Assembly: GCA_013152435.1 (NCBI GenBank)
Contig: JAADGJ010000009.1
Span: forward strand, 1 to 32,543
Reading direction: 5' to 3'
Origin: Chloroflexota bacterium
GTDB lineage: Bacteria; Chloroflexota; Anaerolineae; DUEN01
Length of the DNA stretch: 32,543 bases
The translations under genes and the position numbers were made by a program. A model generated the notes under the pieces. The model was not told the DNA's origin. It saw only the letters and a list, made by a program, of their open reading frames with translations, and did no database searches. Below, in pieces: positions 16,088-32,208 of this stretch (position 1 is the first letter of the stretch; each line of letters opens with the position of its first letter).

Positions 16088-17647
16088 ATGAACGAAGCCC
16101 ACCAACCATCGAAGAAAAGACGACGCCTGATCCCATTCCTCCAGAGAGGACAAGCGGCCGGCATTCGACAGGCTCGTCGATTGAGGATCCCATCCCGCTT
16201 CACCGTTGATCTCACACGACCCGAACACCGACGCAACCTGTTCCTGGGATTCGTCGCTCTCATCCTGGTGGGCTTCGCCTTCCTCTTCAGCGGCTACGAG
16301 GTGTACCACTACACGGAAAGCTCCGAATTTTGCGGCACCGTCTGTCACCCAATGGTCTCGCAATTCGCCCGCTATCAGCGCTCCCCGCACGCCAACGTGG
16401 AATGCGCCAAGTGCCATATCGGCCCGGGAGCCTCGTTCTTCATCAAGTCCAAGATCGATGGGCTCAAACAGGTCTATGCCGTGCTCGCCAACACATACAG
16501 CCGCCCCATCAAGAGCCCGGTCCATGACCTGCGACCGGCGCGTGAGACGTGCGAGGAATGCCACACGCCTACGCTATTCAAAGACAACATCATCAAAACC
16601 ATCCTGCATTACGATAACGACGAGGCAAACACCCCCGTGCAATCCACCTTGATCCTGAAGATGGGCGGATACCAGGAGAGCACGGGCATCAGCCAGGGGA
16701 TTCACTGGCACATCACCAACCCGGTTTATTACATCGCCTCCGATGAACAACGCCAGGTGATCTTGTGGGTGGGTGTGGAACAGAAAGATGGAACGATGAA
16801 GGAGTACTTCGCCCGGGATGTGCTCCTCATGGCTCAGACCTCCTTTGTGGAGGAGGCGAGGAAGAAGGGGCTGGTGCGTGAGATGGACTGCATCGATTGC
16901 CACAACCGCACGGCGCACTACATCCCCACGCCAGAGGAGATGGTGGACGAAGCCATCAGCACAGGGCGCATACCAGCGGACCTGCCTTACATCCGGGCAA
17001 AGGCGGTGGAGGTCCTGAAGCCGCTCTACTCCAGCCTGAACGAGGCCTATGAGGCCATCGACGGATTGATGGACTTCTATCGGGTGGGCTATCCGGCGGT
17101 CTACACCAATCGCCGCAAGGACATTGAGTCCGCCCTCGCCGAGCTGAAGCGGATCTACGCGCAGACGAACTTCCCAGAGATCGGGCTAAACTGGCAGACC
17201 AACCCCAACAACGAGCGACACACGCCGTTTCCCGGCTGCTTCCGCTGCCATGATGGGAAGCACGTGAGCACGGATGAGTCGGGTAAGGCCATCGATACGA
17301 TCGCCGTCAAATGCAATTTGTGTCATACCGTTCCCATCGTCAGTCGCGGCAGCGACCTGCTCGTAGAAGCGCCCGTCATCGTCGGGCCGATTCCGGACTC
17401 CCACTCCGATTTCCGCTGGACAGTGGAGCACCGCTCCATATCCCCGGCGCAACAGGCGGAGTGCTACGTCTGCCACGGGCAGGCCTTCTGCAATAACAAA
17501 GCGTGCCATAACCTCTCCCACCCGCCGGACATGCTGTTTACTCACGCGGATGAATACCGCAGGCGGGGGGATCAGGTTTGCTATACCTGTCATCAGAACA
17601 TCCTGTGCAGCCGTTGCCACCCAGGAGGGATCGTCGAGAACCCGTAA
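16088..17647 (+). CDS. NapC/NrfH-like membrane-anchored decahaem cytochrome c
   Basis: 519 residues: a basic N-terminus, one membrane helix (about 52-72), then an external haem domain. Ten haem sites: CGTVCH (CX3CH) right after the helix, CAKCH, CEECH, CIDCH, CFRCH, CNLCH, CYVCH, CNNKACH (CX4CH), CYTCH and CSRCH. A first haem directly after a single helix, with CHPM and a nearby SPHA segment, is characteristic of NapC/NrfH/NirT quinol dehydrogenases, which take electrons from menaquinol. Those usually have four or five haems, so this is a large C-terminal extension. A related gene lies at 29767-32208, sharing [19 protein letters not shown] and [17 protein letters not shown] at 16074-16078 supports the start. 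Confidence 0.9.
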
Positions 17648-17715
17648 GGACCGCCAGGGACGTCCGGTCCGGGGTTGAGCGATCGCCAGACAGAAGCGTC
17701 AGGAGCCGGCATCCG

Positions 17716-20532
17716 TTGAATCGCAAGCTGCAGATCGGCAGAAACGCATCATGGGGGATGTGGGGATCCATCATCGGGATCCTCCTTCTCCTGTTCTGCG
17801 TCTGGGCAAGCGGCGGGGGCGAGACCACCCCCGTCCACGCGGCCGCGCGCACTCCGACGCTTCTGCCGCCGGTGGGTCCCTCCCATCCCAAGCCCACGGA
17901 CACGCCGACACCGACGCCCTCTTCCACAGCCACCAGTACGCCGACGCCCACGGAAACGCCGTCCCCCACACCGACGGAGACACCGACCGAGCCGCCGACA
18001 CCAACCAGCACGCCGACAGAGACGCCCACGGATACGCCTACGGCGGCCCCACAACCGACGGACACGCCGACCGCATCGCCCACGCCGACGGACACACTGA
18101 CTCCATCGCCGACGCCTACGCCGACGCTTTCGGCCCCGCCGACGCCGACTCCTACGCCGACCGAGACGTGGACGCCAACGCCTACGCCGACTTTCACACC
18201 GACACCGACGGCATCCACTCCGTTGACGCCCTCGTCGACGCCTAGCGATACGCCGACGCCTACGCCTTCGCCGACGCCTACCAGCACACCGGCGGATACC
18301 CCCACGCCCACGAGCACTCCCGCGGCGGGGGATACGCCATCGCCGACACCCAGCGCCACGCCAACGGCGACGCCCACGGTCACACCGACGCCGACGCCCA
18401 GCGCCACCCCAACGGCGACCCTGACCCCTACGCCGACCGAGACGTGGACGCCAACGCCTACGCCGACCTCCACGCCCACGCCTACATCGACGCCGTCGCC
18501 CACGCCGACGAACACACCCACGCCGTCCCCCACGCCCACGGAGACTCCGTCACCGACGCCCACGCCGGTGTTTGACATGGAGCTGATCGCGGCGGCCGAC
18601 ACCTATATCAGCGCCTACTCCCCGGGCTCCAACTATGGAGGCGACACCACCTTCCGCGTCCGCACCCAGGACGCCATGCACGCCCTCCTCTACTTCGACC
18701 TGAGCAGCCTCCCGCCCGGCTCCGTCATCCAGCAGGCGGAACTCCTCCTGTTCCAGGATAGCCGCACCAACCACAACGCCATCACCCTGGAAGCCTACGC
18801 CATGCTCCGCCCCTGGAACGAATACCAGGCCAACTGGAACCAGGCCCAATCCAACGACCCCTGGGGCCAGGCCGGCGCCAGCGCCCCAGACGTCGACCGC
18901 GCCAGCTCCCCCGTCGCTTCCGTCCAGATCAACCAACCCCAGGGCTTCGTCTCCATCAACATCCAACCCCTGGTCCAAAACTGGGTCGACCAACCCACCC
19001 AAAACCACGGCCTCCAACTGCGCGCCACCGGCAGCGGCAAGGTCGCCTACTACTTCGCCTCCCGCGAACACGCCAACCCAGACTACCAGCCCCGCCTGCG
19101 CCTGCGGTATACCATCGTGCCCACCCCGACACCTACGCCGACGCCGACCGCCACGTTTACGGCCACCTTCACGCCCGCGCCGACGGACACACCGACACCA
19201 ACGCCAACGGATACACCTACCCTGACCATGACGCCGACGATGACACCCACGGCCACCATCACCACCACCGCCACCGTCTCGCCCACGCCCACGGCCAGCG
19301 TCTCCGTCACGCCTACCATGACGCCCACACCATCGCCCACGGCCACACCATCGCCAACACCCACCGTCACCCCCACCCCAACACCGGAGGTGACCGTCAT
19401 ACCGGGGCCGGCACCACCACCTCAGCCCACCCCCGGCCCGCCGGCACACAACAACAGCACACCCTATTCCTCCACGACCGACGCCTGCGCGGGGTGCCAC
19501 CGCTTCCACACCGCGAGCGGTCCGGACCTTCGCCGCGCGTGGCCAGAGGAGGCGCTGTGCCTGAGCTGCCATGACGGCACAGGGGCCAGCACGAACATAT
19601 ACGCGCAATTCCAGCAGCCTTATCGACACCCCATCGACGCCACCACCCACGTCCATCAGGCGGGGGAGATCACGCCCGATCGCTTCAGCGGCGCCAATCG
19701 CCACGTGGAGTGCGAAGACTGCCACAACCCGCACGACTCGGCCGTCGGATCCCACGCGGAGGGGAGCAACTACGCCAGCGGCGTCCTCCAGGGCGTGCGG
19801 GGGATCCAGGTGAGCAACGGCCCCGGCGGAACCACGCCCACGTATAGCCTGGCTGATCCCATCACGTACGAGTACGAGCTCTGCTTTAAGTGCCACTCCT
19901 CGTGGAGCTCCGTGGGGACCGGCACGGACACCTCCGTGGAGTTCAACCCGAACAACTATGCCCACCACGCGGTGGAGGCGCCCGGCCGGAATCAACCAGG
20001 CACGGCCAATCCCTACTTCGCCCTGACGTTCACGTCCTCCTGGGGGCCGCGAAGCACGGTCCAATGCAGCGATTGCCATGGCGGGTCCGGAGCAAAAGGG
20101 CCGCACGGCTCCGATCGCCCCTGGATCCTGCGCCGCAACGAAACCGGCCAGGGCTCCTCGGAGGTCTTCTGCTACAATTGCCATCGCCGCGATGTCTACG
20201 GCGACGTGGATCTCAGAAAACCGCCTTACCGATCCTACAGCCGCTTCTCCCATCCCGGCCCCATGCCGCACACCCAGCTGTCCGGCTCCTGGGGGACCAA
20301 CCCATGGGGGATCTGGTGCATGAACTGCCACGGAGGGGATACCCTGGGCGGCCTGCACGGGACCAACCGCGGCGTGGGGAAGTATGGGAGCACGCCGCTG
20401 GGCAAGAGGTTCATGAACGGGGCCTTCATAGAGGGATGGACAGCTGCGGCGGACGGGCAGAGAGGCACCTGCTGGGCCACGTGTCATCCGGGCCCCAAGC
20501 GCTACAGAGCGAACTATAACTACCCGCCATAA
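17716..20532 (+). CDS. Thr-Pro / DNRLRE / octahaem cytochrome fusion protein
   Basis: About 938 residues from TTG at 17716, chosen for AGGAG at 17701-17705; ATG at 17758 is an alternative. A signal peptide ([17 protein letters not shown]) is followed by a roughly 225-codon Thr-Pro linker. A DNRLRE-type beta-sandwich (about residues 287-467) contains [29 protein letters not shown] and VQNWVDQP. A second Thr-Pro linker precedes a cytochrome domain (about 578-938) with seven CxxCH (CAGCH, CLSCH, CEDCH, CFKCH, CSDCH, CYNCH, CMNCH) and a terminal CWATCH. The first pair resembles the doubled-CxxCH proteins upstream. DNRLRE modules occur in wall-associated proteins of Gram-positive bacteria, so the haem domain may be displayed at a distance from the membrane. 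The DNRLRE part has strikingly C-ending codons unlike its surroundings. Confidence 0.88.
17896..18570 (+). repeat. Thr-Pro linker repeat, first block
   Basis: About 225 codons of degenerate TPTPT repeat with Ser, Glu, Asp and Ala substitutions. A 41-bp segment at 18151-18191 recurs exactly at 18427-18467, showing internal duplication. Confidence 0.9.
19120..19395 (+). repeat. Thr-Pro linker repeat, second block
   Basis: Thr-Pro rich linker of about 90 codons, with Met, Ile and Val substitutions, between the DNRLRE and cytochrome domains. Confidence 0.88.
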
Positions 20533-21521: not shown

Positions 21522-22889
21522 ATGAACAAGATCGCCATCATAGCGGCTAGCCTCACACTGCTGCTATTCCTCGTCCTGATCGTCACCGGGTGTGCGCCCA
21601 TCCTCACGCCTCCCGCGATGCCATCCCCCACACAGGTCACTTCCGCCGAATCCCCCGCGTCACCCCCGGCGGAAGAAGAGGCCGTGGCGGAGGAGAAAGT
21701 CGTCATAGAGGACGACGCCTGCACGGAGTGCCACCGAGAAGTGACGCCAGGGATCGTGCGAGACTACCAGCAGGGCAAGATGTACACGGCCGGCATCCAG
21801 TGCGCGAGCTGCCACGGCTCCAAGCACATGAGCGCCGAGGACGTGGCCCAGGTGAGGATCCCCACGCCTGACGTCTGCGGGGCCTGCCATCCGACCCAGG
21901 TCGCCCAGTTCAAGGAGGGCAAGCACGCCATCGCCTGGGCAGCCATGAACGCCATGCCCACCACTCACATGCAGCCCATGGCGCTGATCGAGGGGAAGAA
22001 AGGATGCGGCAGCTGCCATAAGATCGGCCTGAAGACGGAGGAGGAGATCCAGGCGATGCAAGAGGCCGGCGAGATCCACGGCGTGGCCTCATGTGACTCC
22101 TGCCATACGCGACACGCCTTCTCCGTCGCCGAGGCGCGTCAACCGGAAGCCTGTGCCACCTGCCATATGGGCTTCGACCATCCGCAGTGGGAGATGTGGC
22201 AGACCTCCAAGCACGGCGTGCGGTTCCTGCTCAAGCGCCAGGGGGTGCTGCCGGAGGATGCCGCCGCCCCGAGTTGCCAGGACTGCCACATGCAAGGCGG
22301 CGATCATGAGGTTCGCACGGCGTGGGGCTTCCTGGCGGTACGCCTGCCGCTACCCGAGGATCCCCAATGGGCGGATGATCGGGTGACGATCCTGAAGGCC
22401 CTGGGCGTGCTCGATCCGGAAGGGAATCCAACGGGGCGGCTCGACGTCGTCAAGGCCGCGGACGTGGCGCGCCTGACCGAGGAAGCCTGGCAGGCCGAGC
22501 GCCAGAAGATGCTGGCGACCTGTAGCGAGTGCCACTCTGAGCCCTTCGCGGAAGCTGAGCTGAAGAAGGGCGATGACATGATTCGCGAGGCCGACCGCCT
22601 TATGGCAGAGGCCATCCGAATCGTGGCCAAGCTTTACGAGGATGGTCTCCTGGAGCGGCCCGAGCACTTCGCATACGACTATCCGGACCTGCTGACGTTC
22701 TACGAGGTGAACCATCCCATCGAGCAGGAGCTCTTCAAGATGTTCCTGGAGTATCGGATGCGCACCTTCCAGGGAGCCTTCCACGCGAACCCGGAGTACA
22801 CCTTCTGGTACGGCTGGGCGGAGATGAAGGCGAGCTTGACGGAGATCAGGGCAATGGCCGAGGAACTGCGCGAGAAGGCCGCCCAGTGA
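21522..22889 (+). CDS. Octahaem lipoprotein, hydroxylamine oxidoreductase (HAO)-like
   Basis: 455 residues from ATG at 21522 with GGAGG at 21510-21514. A lipoprotein signal peptide ends at Cys24 (LIVTGC). After an acidic/Pro linker come eight CxxCH motifs: CTECH, CASCH, CGACH, CGSCH, CDSCH, CATCH, CQDCH and CSECH. The spacing and segments such as CASCHGSKHMSAEDV, CGACHPTQVAQFKEGKH and CGSCHKIG fit the HAO family. The C-terminal helical part includes EYTFWYGWAEMK, near where the catalytic cross-linking tyrosine of true HAO lies; whether that Tyr is equivalent cannot be settled by eye. Family members oxidise hydroxylamine or hydrazine, or reduce nitrite or hydroxylamine. A pure electron-carrier role is also possible. 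It is the first gene of a three-gene operon. Confidence 0.85.
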   Translation: MNKIAIIAASLTLLLFLVLIVTGCAPILTPPAMPSPTQVTSAESPASPPAEEEAVAEEKVVIEDDACTECHREVTPGIVRDYQQGKMYTAGIQCASCHGSKHMSAEDVAQVRIPTPDVCGACHPTQVAQFKEGKHAIAWAAMNAMPTTHMQPMALIEGKKGCGSCHKIGLKTEEEIQAMQEAGEIHGVASCDSCHTRHAFSVAEARQPEACATCHMGFDHPQWEMWQTSKHGVRFLLKRQGVLPEDAAAPSCQDCHMQGGDHEVRTAWGFLAVRLPLPEDPQWADDRVTILKALGVLDPEGNPTGRLDVVKAADVARLTEEAWQAERQKMLATCSECHSEPFAEAELKKGDDMIREADRLMAEAIRIVAKLYEDGLLERPEHFAYDYPDLLTFYEVNHPIEQELFKMFLEYRMRTFQGAFHANPEYTFWYGWAEMKASLTEIRAMAEELREKAAQ

Positions 22890-25213: not shown

Positions 25214-26455
25214 ATGAGGAGACGATGGAGAACGGTGTTGTTCGTAGGCAGTCTCCTGGTACTGGCGCTGGTGCTAGCTGCATGCGCTGCCCAGGCCGGG
25301 CCGCCCGGACCGGAAGGACCGCCCGGGCCACAGGGTCCCGCCGGGCCACAGGGGCCGCCCGGGCCAGAAGGGCCTCCAGGTCCACAGGGGCCGCAGGGAC
25401 CACCAGGGCCTCCGGGACCATCGGGCGCGGAATATGTGGGGGCCGAAACGTGTGGTACCTGCCATCAGGAGATCTATGAGAAGTTCATGCGCTCCGGGCA
25501 TGCCTGGAAGCTGAACCCCGTGGTGAACGGCCAGCCGCCCGACTATCCGTTTACCGAGGTGCCCAACCCGCCGGAGGGCTACACGTGGGATGACATCTCC
25601 TATGTCATCGGCGGCTACAACTGGAAGGCGCGCTTCATCGACAAGGAAGGCTACATCATCACCGGCGATGAAAACGCGACCACCCAGTACAACTTCGCCA
25701 ATCCCATCGTGGGCAAGGAAGCCGGCTGGGTTGCCTATCACCCCGGGGAGGAGAAGCCGTACAACTGCGGCCCCTGCCACACCACCGGGTATAAGCCTGA
25801 GGGCCACCAGGATGACATGCCCGGCATCGTAGGCACGTGGGCCGAGCCTGGCATCAAGTGCGAGGAATGCCACGGCCCAGGCAGCCTCCACGCGGCCAAT
25901 CCGTATGGCGTGCGCCTGGAAGTGGATCGGGATTCCGAACAGTGTGGCGAGTGCCACCTGCGCGGCGATCCGACGGCTGTAGACGCCAAGGGCGGATTCA
26001 TCAAGCACCACGAGCAGTACGAAGAGCTGCTTCAGAGCAAGCACATCGCCCTGGACTGCGTCGTGTGCCATGATCCGCATGAGGGCGTCGTGCAGCTGCG
26101 CAAGGCAGGCGAGCCGACGACGCGAATCCAGTGCGAGAACTGCCACTTCAAGGAGGCCAAGAACCAAAGCGATGTGCACAAGGCCATGAAAGTGGAGTGC
26201 GTCGATTGCCACATGCCGCGTATCGTAAAGAGCGCATGGGGCGACCCGGATAAGTTCACCGGGGACATCCGCACTCACATGATGGCCATCGACCCGGAGC
26301 AGGTGAACCAGTTCACCGAGGACGGCAAGCTGGCCTTGTCGCAGATCTCGCTGGACTTCGCCTGCCGACATTGCCACGTGGAGGGCGGACAGGCAACTCC
26401 CAAGACGGATGAGCAACTACGTGAGCGAGCCATCGGCTATCACGAGGGGCCGTAA
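25214..26455 (+). CDS. Octahaem lipoprotein with collagen-like Gly-X-Y segment
   Basis: 413 residues from ATG at 25214 with AAAGGAGGG at 25196-25204. The lipobox LAAC places lipidated Cys at residue 24. Directly after it come about 14 Gly-X-Y triplets ([12 protein letters not shown] and GPS types), a collagen-like stretch that could trimerise or act as a rigid stalk. The cytochrome domain has eight CxxCH: CGTCH, CGPCH, CEECH, CGECH, CVVCH, CENCH, CVDCH and [25 protein letters not shown] and [11 protein letters not shown] again fit the c554-like family. The stalk would place the haems away from the membrane, in or beyond the cell wall. It is the last gene of the operon starting with the HAO-like protein and is followed by a rho-independent terminator. 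Confidence 0.9.
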
Positions 26456-27220: not shown

Positions 27221-28321
27221 ATGCTCGTAAATCCTTGGCGGCGACGATGCAAATACGCAGCGATTCTCTTGCTGGCCCTGATGCTACTGACCCCCTTCAC
27301 CATCGATGCTGCGGGGCAAGGGGGCGATGAGAACGCGGTCTGCCTGGGCTGCCACAGCAACCCAAGCCTCGAGATGGAGCTGCCCAGCGGCGAGAAGCTA
27401 TCCCTGTACGTGGACCCGGAAGTGTTCGGATCCTCCGTCCACGGCCGACTGAAGCAGAAATGCACGGCCTGTCATGAGAACATCTCCGGATATCCCCATC
27501 CACCGCTGTTCGCCGTAGACCGCCGGGACCTGTCCATAGGGCTCTACACCGTCTGCCGGCAGTGCCATGAAAAGCAATATCGTGACACCCTGGATAGCGT
27601 CCACGCCCGCCTGCTGGCCGGTGGGGACCGAAACGCTCCCGTCTGCACTGACTGCCACGGGTATCACGATGTCACCCCGCCCGACGAGCCACGCTCCAAG
27701 ATCGCTCAGACATGCTCAAAATGCCACTCCATCATTTACAACCAATACAAGGAGAGCGTCCACGGCGCAGCGCTCATGGAGGAGAGGAATCCGGACGTGC
27801 CAACATGCGTGGATTGCCACGGAGTGCATCACATGGACGACCCACGCACGGCGGAGTTTCGTCTCAAGTCGCCGCAGATCTGCGCGAACTGCCATACCGA
27901 CCCTGAGCGCATGGACAAATACGGGATCTCCACCGATGTCTTGGATACCTACGTCGCCGATTTCCATGGCACCACGGTAGAGCTGTTCGTCAAACAAGCG
28001 CCCGATCATCCGACGAACAAAGCCGTCTGCTACGATTGCCACGGGATCCACGACATCAAGAAGGTGACGGATCCGGAAGCTACCGTCGTGAAAGAGAACC
28101 TGCTGCGCACGTGTCGGCAATGCCATCCCGACGCGACAGCGAACTTCCCGACAGCCTGGGTAGGACACTATCGCGCCAGCCCTGATCGATATCCGCTGGT
28201 CTACTACGTAAACCTCTTCTACAACATCCTCATTCCCTCGCTGATCGGGTTCTTTCTCATCTACATCCTGCTCGATGCGACCCACCGCATCCTGAAGCGA
28301 TTCGCACGAAGAGGGGCTTAG
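27221..28321 (+). CDS. Nonahaem c-type cytochrome with C-terminal membrane anchor
   Basis: 366 residues from ATG at 27221 with GGGGAGG at 27210-27216. A signal peptide (AAILLLALMLLTPFTIDA) is followed by nine CxxCH: CLGCH, CTACH, CRQCH, CTDCH, CSKCH, CVDCH, CANCH, CYDCH and CRQCH. A C-terminal helix (about 334-354, NILIPSLIGFFLIYILLDA) anchors it with the haems outside. Its stop is 2 nt before the cytochrome b gene, so the two are surely co-translated. A nonahaem c domain next to a FdnI/HydC-type b domain recalls CbcL of Geobacter, where both are fused and serve as a menaquinol oxidoreductase. Here the two parts are separate genes. Role as the first acceptor of the quinol-oxidising complex is inference. 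Confidence 0.9.
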   Translation: MLVNPWRRRCKYAAILLLALMLLTPFTIDAAGQGGDENAVCLGCHSNPSLEMELPSGEKLSLYVDPEVFGSSVHGRLKQKCTACHENISGYPHPPLFAVDRRDLSIGLYTVCRQCHEKQYRDTLDSVHARLLAGGDRNAPVCTDCHGYHDVTPPDEPRSKIAQTCSKCHSIIYNQYKESVHGAALMEERNPDVPTCVDCHGVHHMDDPRTAEFRLKSPQICANCHTDPERMDKYGISTDVLDTYVADFHGTTVELFVKQAPDHPTNKAVCYDCHGIHDIKKVTDPEATVVKENLLRTCRQCHPDATANFPTAWVGHYRASPDRYPLVYYVNLFYNILIPSLIGFFLIYILLDATHRILKRFARRGA

Positions 28322-28323
28322 GT

Positions 28324-29691
28324 ATGGAGCACAGAGAGCAACGGACGTACCAGCGATTCACAGCGACGCAGCGGATAGAGCACTTTGTGCTCATGCTCTC
28401 CTTCACCGCGCTGGCGATCACGGGCCTCCCACAGAAGTACGTGGGACACAATTGGGCGGAGACGATGATCGGATGGATGGGCGGCATCGAGACGGTTCGC
28501 CAGATCCATCACGCGGCCGCCGTCGTGCTGCTGTTGGGCAGCATCTTCCACGTCGTGGCGATCGGCTATCGGCTCTTCGTCCTCCGGGTGCCCCCCGCCA
28601 TCCTGCCCCACCCCAGGGATCTGTTGGACATGATCGATGAGTTTCGCTATCTCCTGGGGCTGGCCAAGAAACCGCCCCCCATGGATCGCTACACCTACCA
28701 CGAAAAGCTCGAATACTGGGGTGTGGTGTGGGGAACCCTCATCATGGCCATCACCGGTTTCATGATGTGGAATCCCATCACCACCACACGCTTCCTACCT
28801 GGGGAGGTCATCCCGGCAGCCAAGGCGGCTCATGGCGGCGAGGCGATCCTGGCCGTCTTGACGATCCTCACATGGCACACATACCACGCCCACATCAAGC
28901 ACTTCAACAAGAGCATCTTCACCGGCAAGCTGACCGAGGAGGAGATGGAGGAAGAGCATCCTCTGGAGCTGGAGCGCATCAAAGCGGGCCAGGTGCCTAC
29001 CCCTCCCGATGAGGAGACGCGACGGCGCCGCGAGCATCTGTACATCCCGGTCGCCGGCATCATGTCGGCGGTGCTCCTCTTCGGCCTCTATGAGTTCGTC
29101 ACCTTCGAGGAGACGGCCATCACCACCCTGCCGCGACGCGTGACGGTGGTAGCCTATGCGCCGGCGACGCCAACCCCCACCGCCACGCCGACCGCGACCG
29201 CCACGCCTACACCGATGCCGAAGCCAACGTTCACTCCCACCTCCTTCCCGGTGCTCCCCGGGGTGCCTATCCCGCACGTCTTAACCCAACGGGAGAACTG
29301 CGTGCTATGCCACGGCCAGGGGGCCATGAAGCCATTCCCTACAGACCACGCGGGCCGGGGGAATGAGACGTGTCTGAAGTGCCATCCATTGACGGGGAAC
29401 GAGCGCGTGTTGCCCACGACGCAACCTGCCTCGGTGCCCAGCTTTCAGACAGCGGTCCTCCCGATCCTCCAGGCCAAATGCGTCGTATGCCACGGCGGGA
29501 TCGCCGGCCTTCACATGACCACCTATGAGGGCCTTATGCAGGGAAGCGAACACGGCCCCGTGATCGTGCCCGGGCAGCCGGACAAAAGCCTGTTGGTGCA
29601 AAAGATGCTGAGCGAGCACCCGACACTGCTGACCGAAGAAGAGCTAGCCATCGTACGAGCCTGGATCGAGGCCGGCGCGCCGAACAACTAG
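28324..29691 (+). CDS. Cytochrome b (FdnI/HydC type) fused to a trihaem cytochrome c domain
   Basis: 455 residues. Four membrane helices of the formate dehydrogenase gamma / hydrogenase cytochrome b fold span about residues 20-195. Candidate haem b ligands are His20, His62 or 63, His76, His170 and His185 or 188. A fifth helix (about 240-258) leads to an external Thr-Pro linker (280-308) and a cytochrome domain with CVLCH, CLKCH and CVVCH. The first two form a dihaem module (IPHVLTQRENCVLCH then DHAGRGNETCLKCH) also found repeated in the next gene. The third, CVVCHGGIAGLHMTTYEGLM followed by PGQPDKSLLV, looks like a PSCyt1-type cytochrome c domain. It probably oxidises menaquinol and passes electrons outward. 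Helix assignments are by eye. Confidence 0.88.
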   Translation: MEHREQRTYQRFTATQRIEHFVLMLSFTALAITGLPQKYVGHNWAETMIGWMGGIETVRQIHHAAAVVLLLGSIFHVVAIGYRLFVLRVPPAILPHPRDLLDMIDEFRYLLGLAKKPPPMDRYTYHEKLEYWGVVWGTLIMAITGFMMWNPITTTRFLPGEVIPAAKAAHGGEAILAVLTILTWHTYHAHIKHFNKSIFTGKLTEEEMEEEHPLELERIKAGQVPTPPDEETRRRREHLYIPVAGIMSAVLLFGLYEFVTFEETAITTLPRRVTVVAYAPATPTPTATPTATATPTPMPKPTFTPTSFPVLPGVPIPHVLTQRENCVLCHGQGAMKPFPTDHAGRGNETCLKCHPLTGNERVLPTTQPASVPSFQTAVLPILQAKCVVCHGGIAGLHMTTYEGLMQGSEHGPVIVPGQPDKSLLVQKMLSEHPTLLTEEELAIVRAWIEAGAPNN

Positions 29692-29766
29692 CCGCCCTCG
29701 CACGGGACTCGACGACCACTTGCAGTGTTTGCTTTCCTATCAAACCAACGTAAACGAGGGAGAAAA

Positions 29767-32208
29767 GTGGGGCAAGCCTTCGCGTGGTTAAAATCGCATC
29801 GCGGATATCTGTACTTATTTAGCAGCATCGCCGCTATCGTGCTCGGTTCACTGGTATTCGCCGGCGGGGTCACGGTCTGGGAGTACACGAACAGCTCCCA
29901 ATTCTGTGGCACCACATGCCATGCTATGCCGCCGGAGTATAAGGCCTATCAGATCTCGCCCCACGCACGCGTCCCCTGCGTGGACTGCCACCTGGGGGTG
30001 GAAAGCGTGCTGACCACGGTCCCGCGCAAGGTCAAGGAGATTCGGCATGTCATCTTCGCGCTGACGAAGAACTACGAGACGCCCATTTATGTAAAGAGCT
30101 TGCGACCCGCCCGATATACCTGTGAGAAATGCCATAACCCGGAGAAGTTCTCCGATGACAGCCTGCGAGTCATTCGGCGGTACGACACCGACGAACAAAA
30201 TAGTGAGACACGCATCTACCTCGTGATGAAAACGGGCGGCGGCAGCAAACGAGAGGGCCTGGGGAGAGGCATCCACTGGCACATCGAAAACGAGGTGTAC
30301 TACATCGCCACGGATGAGCTGAGACAGAAGATCCCCTACGTGCGCCAGGTGGACGATAACGGCGAAGTCACCGAGTACTTCGATGTCTCCGTTGAGCTCC
30401 CGCCCGATTTCGTGGAGCAGAACAGCGAAAAGCTGCATCGCATGGATTGTATCGACTGCCACAACCGCATCTCGCACAAATTCCGGTCCCCTGAGCGAGC
30501 GCTGGACTGGGCGCTATCCCGCCGCCAGATCGACCGCACCATCCCCTACATCAAGCGGAAGGGGGTGGAAGTGCTCAGCGAGCCGTACGCCAACCACGAC
30601 GAGGCGACGGCCGCCATTCAACGGTTGGAGGACTGGTATCGCACCAATTACCCGAAGTGGTACAACAACCCCAAAAACCAGGAGAAGCTGAGGCAGGCCA
30701 TTGCCGAGTTGAAGCGCATCTACGAGGAGACCGTCTTCCCCGAGATGGACGTGGGATGGGAAACCCATCCGGATAATGTCGGGCACACGGATTTCCCCGG
30801 CTGCTTCCGCTGCCACGATGGCAAACATATCAGCGACAAGCAGACGGCCATCCGGCTGGAGTGCAACATCTGCCACTCGATCCCACAGGTGGCAAGACCG
30901 GGGGATCCGCCTCCCAAGATCCCGGTGGAGCGATCCGACGAGCCAAAGTCCCATCAGGATACGCAATGGCTGGCCCGGCACCGCTTCGAGTTCAACGAGA
31001 CATGTGCCAACTGCCATGACATCGCGAACCCCGGGGGCGCGGATAACTCCAGCTTCTGCTCCAACAGCGCATGCCACGGCATAAAGTGGAAGTACGTAGG
31101 GTTGGACGCGCCGGCCCTCCGCGCCCTGCTGGAGCCCTTACGAGAGTCCGGGACCACCGGTGTGCCGCGGGAGATCCCGCATCTGGTGGAGCCACGCACC
31201 AACTGCGAGATCTGCCACGGGTTGGGCAAGGTGCGGCCATATCCACAGAGCCACACAGGCTTCGACCAGACCATGTGCGTGAACTGCCACGCGTTGAAGC
31301 AGGGGCCAGGAGCTCCGGGACCCTCGCCGACGCCCACGCGAGAGGCCCGGCAGGGGATCCCGATCATCCCGCACACACTGGAAGGGCGAGAGGACTGCAC
31401 CCTCTGCCACGCCGTGGAGCATTCGATCATGCCGGCGCCAGCCGATCACGAGGGACGCACGCCGGATACGTGCTCCGCATGCCATAAGGCTGAGGGGGCC
31501 GAGACGCCCACGCCCGAGGGCCAGGAGCCGGCACCCAAACCCACGCCAACAGCCCCCAAGGCGGCCGGCGCGCCGCTGAGCATCCCGCACCCGGTGGAAG
31601 GGCGGGAGGATTGCCTCCTCTGCCACGCCATAGATAGCTCCTTGAAGCCCGCACCGGCCGACCACGAGGGCCGCTCCGCCGACACCTGCCAGATGTGCCA
31701 CAAGGCCGAAGAGGCTGAGGAGGCCGAGGAGGCTCCCACACCTACCCCGGCAGCGCCCGAGGCAACCCGTGCGCCGCTGAGCATCCCGCATCCGGTGGAG
31801 GGGCGGGAGGATTGCCTCCTTTGCCACGCCACAGACAGCGCCCTGAAACCCGCACCGGCCGACCACGAGGGCCGCTCGGCTGATACCTGCCAGATGTGCC
31901 ACAAGGCCGAAGAGGCTGAGGAGGCCCCCACACCAACGAGCCAGGAAGAGACGCCCGGGACGATCGGCGCGCCGCTGAGCATCCCGCACCCGGTGGAGGG
32001 ACGGGAGGATTGCCTCCTCTGCCACGCCATAGATAGCGCCCTGAAGCCCGCACCGGCCGACCACGAGGGCCGCTCGGCCGACACCTGCCAGATGTGCCAT
32101 CAACCGGGCGAGACCTCTTCCGAGGGGAACGAGACGCCCGCCGCGATGCTCACCGTGCCGCCTGACATGCCATGCCAGGCGTGTCACAAGATAGGCGAGG
32201 AAGAGTAA
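29767..32208 (+). CDS. NapC/NrfH-like 19-haem membrane-anchored cytochrome with repeated dihaem modules
   Basis: About 813 residues from GTG at 29767, preferred because GAGGGAG (29756-29762) sits just upstream; GTG at 29725 lacks a ribosome site. One membrane helix (about 16-36) is followed by CGTTCH (CX3CH), as in NapC/NrfH quinol dehydrogenases. Residues to about 440 parallel the decahaem protein at 16088-17647, including [31 protein letters not shown] and a CX4CH site (CSNSACH). The C-terminal half adds five dihaem modules, the last three almost identical, joined by Ala-Glu and Pro-Thr linkers, and ends with CQACH. Total 19 haem sites. Such a protein could take electrons from quinol and carry them far from the membrane as a haem wire. 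A terminator follows. Confidence 0.9.
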   Translation: MGQAFAWLKSHRGYLYLFSSIAAIVLGSLVFAGGVTVWEYTNSSQFCGTTCHAMPPEYKAYQISPHARVPCVDCHLGVESVLTTVPRKVKEIRHVIFALTKNYETPIYVKSLRPARYTCEKCHNPEKFSDDSLRVIRRYDTDEQNSETRIYLVMKTGGGSKREGLGRGIHWHIENEVYYIATDELRQKIPYVRQVDDNGEVTEYFDVSVELPPDFVEQNSEKLHRMDCIDCHNRISHKFRSPERALDWALSRRQIDRTIPYIKRKGVEVLSEPYANHDEATAAIQRLEDWYRTNYPKWYNNPKNQEKLRQAIAELKRIYEETVFPEMDVGWETHPDNVGHTDFPGCFRCHDGKHISDKQTAIRLECNICHSIPQVARPGDPPPKIPVERSDEPKSHQDTQWLARHRFEFNETCANCHDIANPGGADNSSFCSNSACHGIKWKYVGLDAPALRALLEPLRESGTTGVPREIPHLVEPRTNCEICHGLGKVRPYPQSHTGFDQTMCVNCHALKQGPGAPGPSPTPTREARQGIPIIPHTLEGREDCTLCHAVEHSIMPAPADHEGRTPDTCSACHKAEGAETPTPEGQEPAPKPTPTAPKAAGAPLSIPHPVEGREDCLLCHAIDSSLKPAPADHEGRSADTCQMCHKAEEAEEAEEAPTPTPAAPEATRAPLSIPHPVEGREDCLLCHATDSALKPAPADHEGRSADTCQMCHKAEEAEEAPTPTSQEETPGTIGAPLSIPHPVEGREDCLLCHAIDSALKPAPADHEGRSADTCQMCHQPGETSSEGNETPAAMLTVPPDMPCQACHKIGEEE
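31570..32100 (+). repeat. Three near-identical tandem dihaem-module repeats
   Basis: Units begin at 31570, 31771 and 31969 (periods 201 and 198 bp). Each has a conserved core of about 130-160 bp encoding EGREDCLLCHA, then PADHEGRSADTCQMCH. Differences are mostly in the linkers. Two more diverged modules precede them at about 31177-31290 and 31366-31490. Confidence 0.93.

Follow-up and report, generated by a model that had tools for sequence, protein, structure and literature searches.

ImcH, the inner-membrane quinol oxidase of extracellular respiration in G. sulfurreducens, has been described as a protein of 495-519 aa with three transmembrane (TM) helices, a CX3CH motif beside the membrane and six CX2CH motifs (PMC6295460). 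A survey of the family published in 2018 reported 6-10 haems among its members, and included a homologue from Anaerolinea thermophila (Chloroflexi) with a single TM helix (PMC6295460). Haem domains tethered within one chain were described for PgcA, an extracellular trihaem cytochrome of G. sulfurreducens with a lipid-attachment signal, whose monohaem domains sit on flexible P/T-rich linkers and exchange electrons while the molecule stretches up to 18 nm; relatives of PgcA carry 3-14 haems (PMC11520253, PMC5732950). Another arrangement is that of the periplasmic dodecahaem cytochrome GSU1996, where four trihaem domains joined by short linkers are packed into a continuous haem wire with gaps of 3-5 Å between haems, and for whose many haems a capacitor role has also been proposed (PMC10138318). 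In the phylum of the organism considered here, Ardenticatena can exchange electrons with electrodes and has been described as monoderm (PMC5808234).

The window, which is the whole stretch of 32,543 nucleotides of Chloroflexota DNA that was analysed, contains an unbroken series of ten genes for multihaem cytochromes between 13938 and 32208, which together encode 87 haem motifs, and the last of these genes encodes an ImcH-like protein with a long haem tail (Table 1). An alternative upstream GTG at 29725 (open frame 29725-32208) would extend the product to 827 aa; a GAGGGAG ribosome-binding site lies 4 bases 5' of the GTG at 29767, which is most likely the true start. The protein holds 19 haem motifs (haem numbers throughout are counts of binding motifs), namely 17 CxxCH, one CGTTCH (CX3CH) and one CSNSACH (CX4CH), laid out as an 8-haem core followed by five dihaem modules, D1 to D5, and a lone CQACH. 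This count bears out a preliminary description of the locus, which had given 19 haems and a tail with five dihaem modules.

Table 1. Features of the ImcH-like gene and its upstream neighbours (positions in the window).
Feature	Coordinates	Strand	Evidence or remark
Membrane-anchored cytochrome with 9 haems, upstream within this gene run	27221..28321	+	haem motifs, Pfam
b561-type cytochrome gene, adjacent; tail of one dihaem module and PSCyt1 monohaem	28324..29691	+	haem motifs, Pfam; hit at 29197-29499
ImcH-like quinol cytochrome with dihaem tail	29767..32208	+	ORF; 813 aa from GTG 29767
Single N-terminal TM helix, residues 12-41	29800..29889	+	AlphaFold2 helix, block pLDDT ~91-97; Pfam Cytochrom_NNT region
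8-haem NapC/NrfH/ImcH-like core	29905..31077	+	CX3CH at 29905 to CX4CH at 31057-31077; PF03264; NrfH 2j7a; L092
Dihaem module D1	31177..31290	+	position conserved in relatives
Dihaem module D2	31369..31485	+	old copy, synonymous equilibrium with D3
Dihaem module D3	31585..31701	+	lineage-specific copy
Disordered linker D3-D4, KAEEAEEAEEAPTPTPAAPEATRAPLS, example of the inter-module tethers	31702..31785	+	linker pLDDT <50; composition
Dihaem module D4	31786..31902	+	lineage-specific copy
Dihaem module D5	31984..32100	+	lineage-specific copy
Final single haem site CQACH	32173..32187	+	haem motif

The N-terminal part of the core matches PF03264 (NapC/NirT; E 3e-11) and resembles the quinol-dehydrogenase region of NrfH (2j7a) in both sequence and fold, although NrfH has four haems, no tail, and NrfA as its partner. 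As in ImcH, the TM helix and the first haems are similar to NapC/NirT, the atypical CX3CH motif (CGTTCH) comes directly after the membrane helix, and CX2CH haems follow. Moreover, the core is 37% identical over 411 aa to the ImcH-like protein L092 of Desulfuromonadaceae, which was judged by the published description of ImcH and carries a CX3CH and six CX2CH motifs within ~530 aa; this protein and two others from Geobacteraceae/Desulfuromonadaceae (L088 and L099) combine a longer N-terminal hydrophobic part with CX3CH and CX2CH haems. In NCBIfam no model names ImcH, and these three proteins gave nothing but sub-threshold matches to NrfH, TorC and similar models. On the other hand, the AlphaFold2 model of the window protein has only one TM helix instead of three, its core of eight haems ends in CX4CH, and the tail brings the total beyond the 6-10 motifs of the family, so that the protein is called an ImcH-like variant and not plain ImcH. 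Its core fits the published description of the G. sulfurreducens protein, on which the comparison with ImcH was based. A second ImcH-like protein, with 10 haems including CX3CH and CX4CH, is encoded in the same gene run at 16088-17647.

Each of the 138 D modules found in the tails of 59 homologues has an extra His ahead of its first CxxCH and another between its two CxxCH motifs, at a haem-haem spacing fixed at 23-28 aa, and the haems of the module are putatively bis-His. The linkers of the same 59 homologues are 11-118 aa long and consist to 80% of P/T/A/E/S/G/Q. An AlphaFold2 model of two modules gave ~90 pLDDT for each module, <50 for the linker and a pTM of 0.40, in agreement with the full-length model, so that the tail resembles a row of beads threaded on a flexible cord; with linkers that are predicted to be disordered and vary so much in length, there is no conserved geometry of the haem chain between modules. 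Hidden Markov model matches over the tail modules were to PF14522, PF14537 and PF02085, that is, to cytochrome c7/class III c3-type domains, which likewise are small domains with bis-His haems, but with a tri- or tetrahaem fold rather than a dihaem bead. A Foldseek and VIA-align search with the two-module model found no match in the PDB, and the dihaem fold is therefore not tied to a known dihaem structure.

These results bear on how electrons might travel along the tail. The preliminary description had called it a haem wire and proposed structure prediction as a check, from which the modules emerge as confident folds and the linkers between them do not. A rigid wire, with modules packed one after the other as the four trihaem domains are in GSU1996, would find some ground in the tandem bis-His dihaem modules and in the repeated multihaem domains that both proteins carry in a single chain. 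However, the GSU1996 linkers are short, whereas those found here vary in length and sequence and are predicted with low confidence, as is the mutual placement of the modules; such packing seems quite improbable. GSU1996 also differs in having no quinol domain. The "reach" ascribed to the repeats in the preliminary description fits better, on the predicted models, with that of a flexible tether. In this regard, the feature that defines PgcA, folded haem domains on flexible P/T-rich linkers, is present by composition and predicted structure, and in both cases the haem number differs between homologues. By analogy with PgcA, tethered diffusion is the likeliest mechanism for the tail. The likeness is one of working and no homology is claimed; the window tail would consist of bis-His dihaem modules, not monohaem domains, and is fused to a membrane quinol oxidase.

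The history of the modules can be followed in their DNA. From D1 to D5 they start 192, 216, 201 and 198 bp apart, and Tandem Repeats Finder (TRF) assigns to the array a period of 201 with 2.7 copies and a score of 817, the highest of the window. The module DNA of D3, D4 and D5 is 91.5-93.8% identical (89.6% for the D3 and D4 units including linkers), with dS of 0.25-0.40, dN of 0.02 and dN/dS of 0.05-0.08. When the same proteins were encoded with random codons drawn from the usage of this window, 78% identity was expected for the D3/D4/D5 pairs and the 90-92% observed in this comparison was reached in 0 of 5000 simulations, while the 71% identity between D2 and D3 is near the random-codon expectation (reached in 514 of 5000). 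This outcome indicates a fairly recent common origin of D3-D5 and an old one for D2. The protein of D1 is only 37-39% identical to the other modules, and by these comparisons D1 and D2 are old. Each of D2-D5 is nearest to another of the four and not to a module of the relatives. Since the synonymous sites of the core are saturated against the genus-mate (G001), the amplification of D3-D5 postdates the split from it, unless conversion reset the copies. It is thus most likely, as far as sequence comparison can tell, that D3-D5 arose by amplification after this split, and the dN/dS values show purifying selection to have kept the copies since then.

Three other explanations have to be weighed at this point. 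Gene conversion of older copies, in a process of concerted evolution, could have produced the likeness of D3-D5 with no duplication after the split, and the genus-mate L002 does show near-identical copies at overlapping positions in a mosaic pattern: the second half of its D2 recurs, together with its linker, as the second half of D3 and the linker there, and D3 and D4 are identical over their first halves. Such a pattern, however, fits a single 234-bp tandem duplication with its two breakpoints inside modules, which makes D3 a chimera, and the differences among D3-D5 of the window are scattered without clear blocks, which leaves conversion as a rather unlikely account. Neutral slippage of repeats with no functional consequence is also of low probability, because the low dN/dS between copies and the haem ligands kept in every one of the 138 modules are opposed to it, for all that tandem and P/T-rich repeats are common in the window. 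As for an artefact of a metagenome-type assembly, in which extra identical copies may hide by collapse, the genome does lie in 149 contigs, but the longest exact repeat is just 42 bp, making collapse of the copies seen unlikely, and the separate genomes of relatives have tails of the same kind; we regard this explanation as extremely improbable.

To place the tail among its relatives, genomes of the class (60 in a first round, 396 in a second) and a species-wide contig collection were searched, the genomes being mostly metagenome assemblies with one per species, and 111 proteins bearing the core were found in genomes and contigs. Their tails hold 0-11 haems, and totals reach 18 in the genus-mate, 12 in another member of the family and 8-19 in unfused homologues. 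By haem spacing, the tails are built from dihaem (D), trihaem (T, with 14/15 aa spacing) and PSCyt1-like monohaem (M) bricks. In a tree built from the core by a quick maximum-likelihood run, whose change counts do not split gain from loss, the 87 proteins require at least 25 changes in the architecture of the tail and at least 18 in D module number, the latter against ~47 (40-53) with shuffled labels, so the make-up of the tail is passed on by descent and yet changes readily. Where two cores are at least 90% identical the architecture is shared in 3 of 3 pairs, and at 80-90% in 6 of 11, and within one genus a single D module (G042) is found beside two (G004 and G073). In multi-D proteins, 90 of 118 modules are closest to the module at the same position of another protein and 12 of 118 to a copy in their own (the window, L002, L126, L135 and L162), which marks amplification as episodic. 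Judged by these module comparisons, ongoing amplification is limited to a few lineages, and its clearest case is the genus of the window.

Several claims of the preliminary description can be assessed with these data. The module starts confirm exactly the 201 and 198 bp that it gave as periods, and of its proposal that haem number may vary between strains by repeat gain or loss, the survey bears out variation among relatives by gain and loss of modules. The high likeness of the last three copies stands, although at 91-94% identity and with the dS given above they are not almost identical; in the same way, their duplication is recent in the sense of being lineage-specific, D2-D5 being mutually closest, but that dS and the unchanged tails of the three closest pairs do not agree with an event as young as strain divergence.

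Young in-frame tandem duplications with 94.9-99.4% identity between copies were observed in several relatives, including an M module in L156 (288 bp, 99.4%), a 162-bp unit in L162 (98.4%) and a 195-bp unit in the b561 gene of L180 (99.4%). The latter gene (frame L180_+1221) encodes five dihaem modules, of which the last two are 99.4% identical over 173 bp and thus very fresh. The b561-type tails of L009 and L011 hold several PSCyt1 monohaem copies, two of which in L009 are 94.5% identical in DNA at a period of 270 bp.

The exchange of bricks also touches on the purpose of the extra haems. That they serve mainly as an electron store and not for reach, in line with the capacitor role proposed for GSU1996, is compatible with all the sequence data; but monohaem PSCyt1 or trihaem bricks substitute for the dihaem ones, and long linkers, unneeded for storage alone, are kept, so that storage as the main role appears unlikely. 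As an initial idea, restriction of the tail to Chloroflexota was considered and dropped, because 13 haems, with tails of other types, were counted in two proteins with the core from Deltaproteobacteria (Myxococcota) and in one from Bacillota. The former two (L051 and L053) have ImcH-like cores and a tail of another kind, in which the haems lie close together. In L165 (frame L165_-2, at least 1252 aa) a 13-haem part is fused N-terminal to the TM helix and the ImcH-like core, for 21 haems in one frame. A search of openly accessible papers found no prior description of multihaem tails in Chloroflexota.

Dihaem modules are not confined to ImcH-like proteins. Besides the neighbouring b561-type gene of the window, octahaem-type cytochromes carry them N-terminally, as do membrane-anchored multihaem cytochromes of relatives. 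Where b561 tails of relatives were readable, D-tailed ImcH-like genes stand beside D-containing b561 genes and M-tailed beside M-tailed ones, a loose pattern from a rough comparison. A stand-alone lipoprotein of L173 (frame L173_-4840) has 15 haems in 431 aa, almost all in dihaem-type modules. It is possible, as a tentative extension, that the dihaem module is an interchangeable Chloroflexota brick, moved among neighbouring ImcH-like, b561 and octahaem-type genes and selectively amplified, which might tune the length of the tail to the thickness of the wall or the distance to the acceptor.

The run of the window also includes lipoprotein-type cytochromes. One with 8 haems (25214-26455) has collagen-like G-P-P/Q repeats just past its lipobox (Pfam Collagen, 1.3e-7), and an octahaem lipoprotein (21522-22889) resembles hydrazine dehydrogenase/HAO, weakly but clearly (NCBIfam E 2e-24, with a score well short of the cut-off). 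A long P/T-repeat protein (17578-20532), whose translation probably begins further downstream than the TTG listed as its start, has a DNRLRE domain and then ~8 haem motifs.

Altogether, the protein is probably an ImcH-like menaquinol oxidase that passes electrons outward through an expandable tethered dihaem tail, with D3-D5 added by amplification in its lineage. In an Anaerolineae-like member of the Chloroflexota, a placement suggested by the relatives of the window, this one-TM oxidase of the ImcH family would take electrons from the quinol pool with its 8-haem core, as suggested by homology. Bis-His dihaem beads on flexible tethers rich in P/T/A/E would then pass them outward through the cell wall, and this may occur by tethered diffusion and collision and not along a rigid wire, as the anatomy of the tail and the precedent of PgcA suggest. 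Comparison of the relatives shows how such a tail lengthens and shortens, by in-frame tandem duplication and by loss of whole modules.

Such a protein joins two known ideas that were formerly separate, the quinol oxidase of extracellular respiration and the tethered haem domains. If true, a single protein could bring electrons out of the quinol pool and across the wall in a cell without an outer membrane. Homologues with 0-11 tail haems on otherwise similar cores offer a ready natural length series, which could show whether haem number and tether length set the reach or the rate of electron transfer in tethered cytochromes. Moreover, in-frame duplication of haem modules among close relatives makes the growth of a multihaem protein something that can be watched in sequence.
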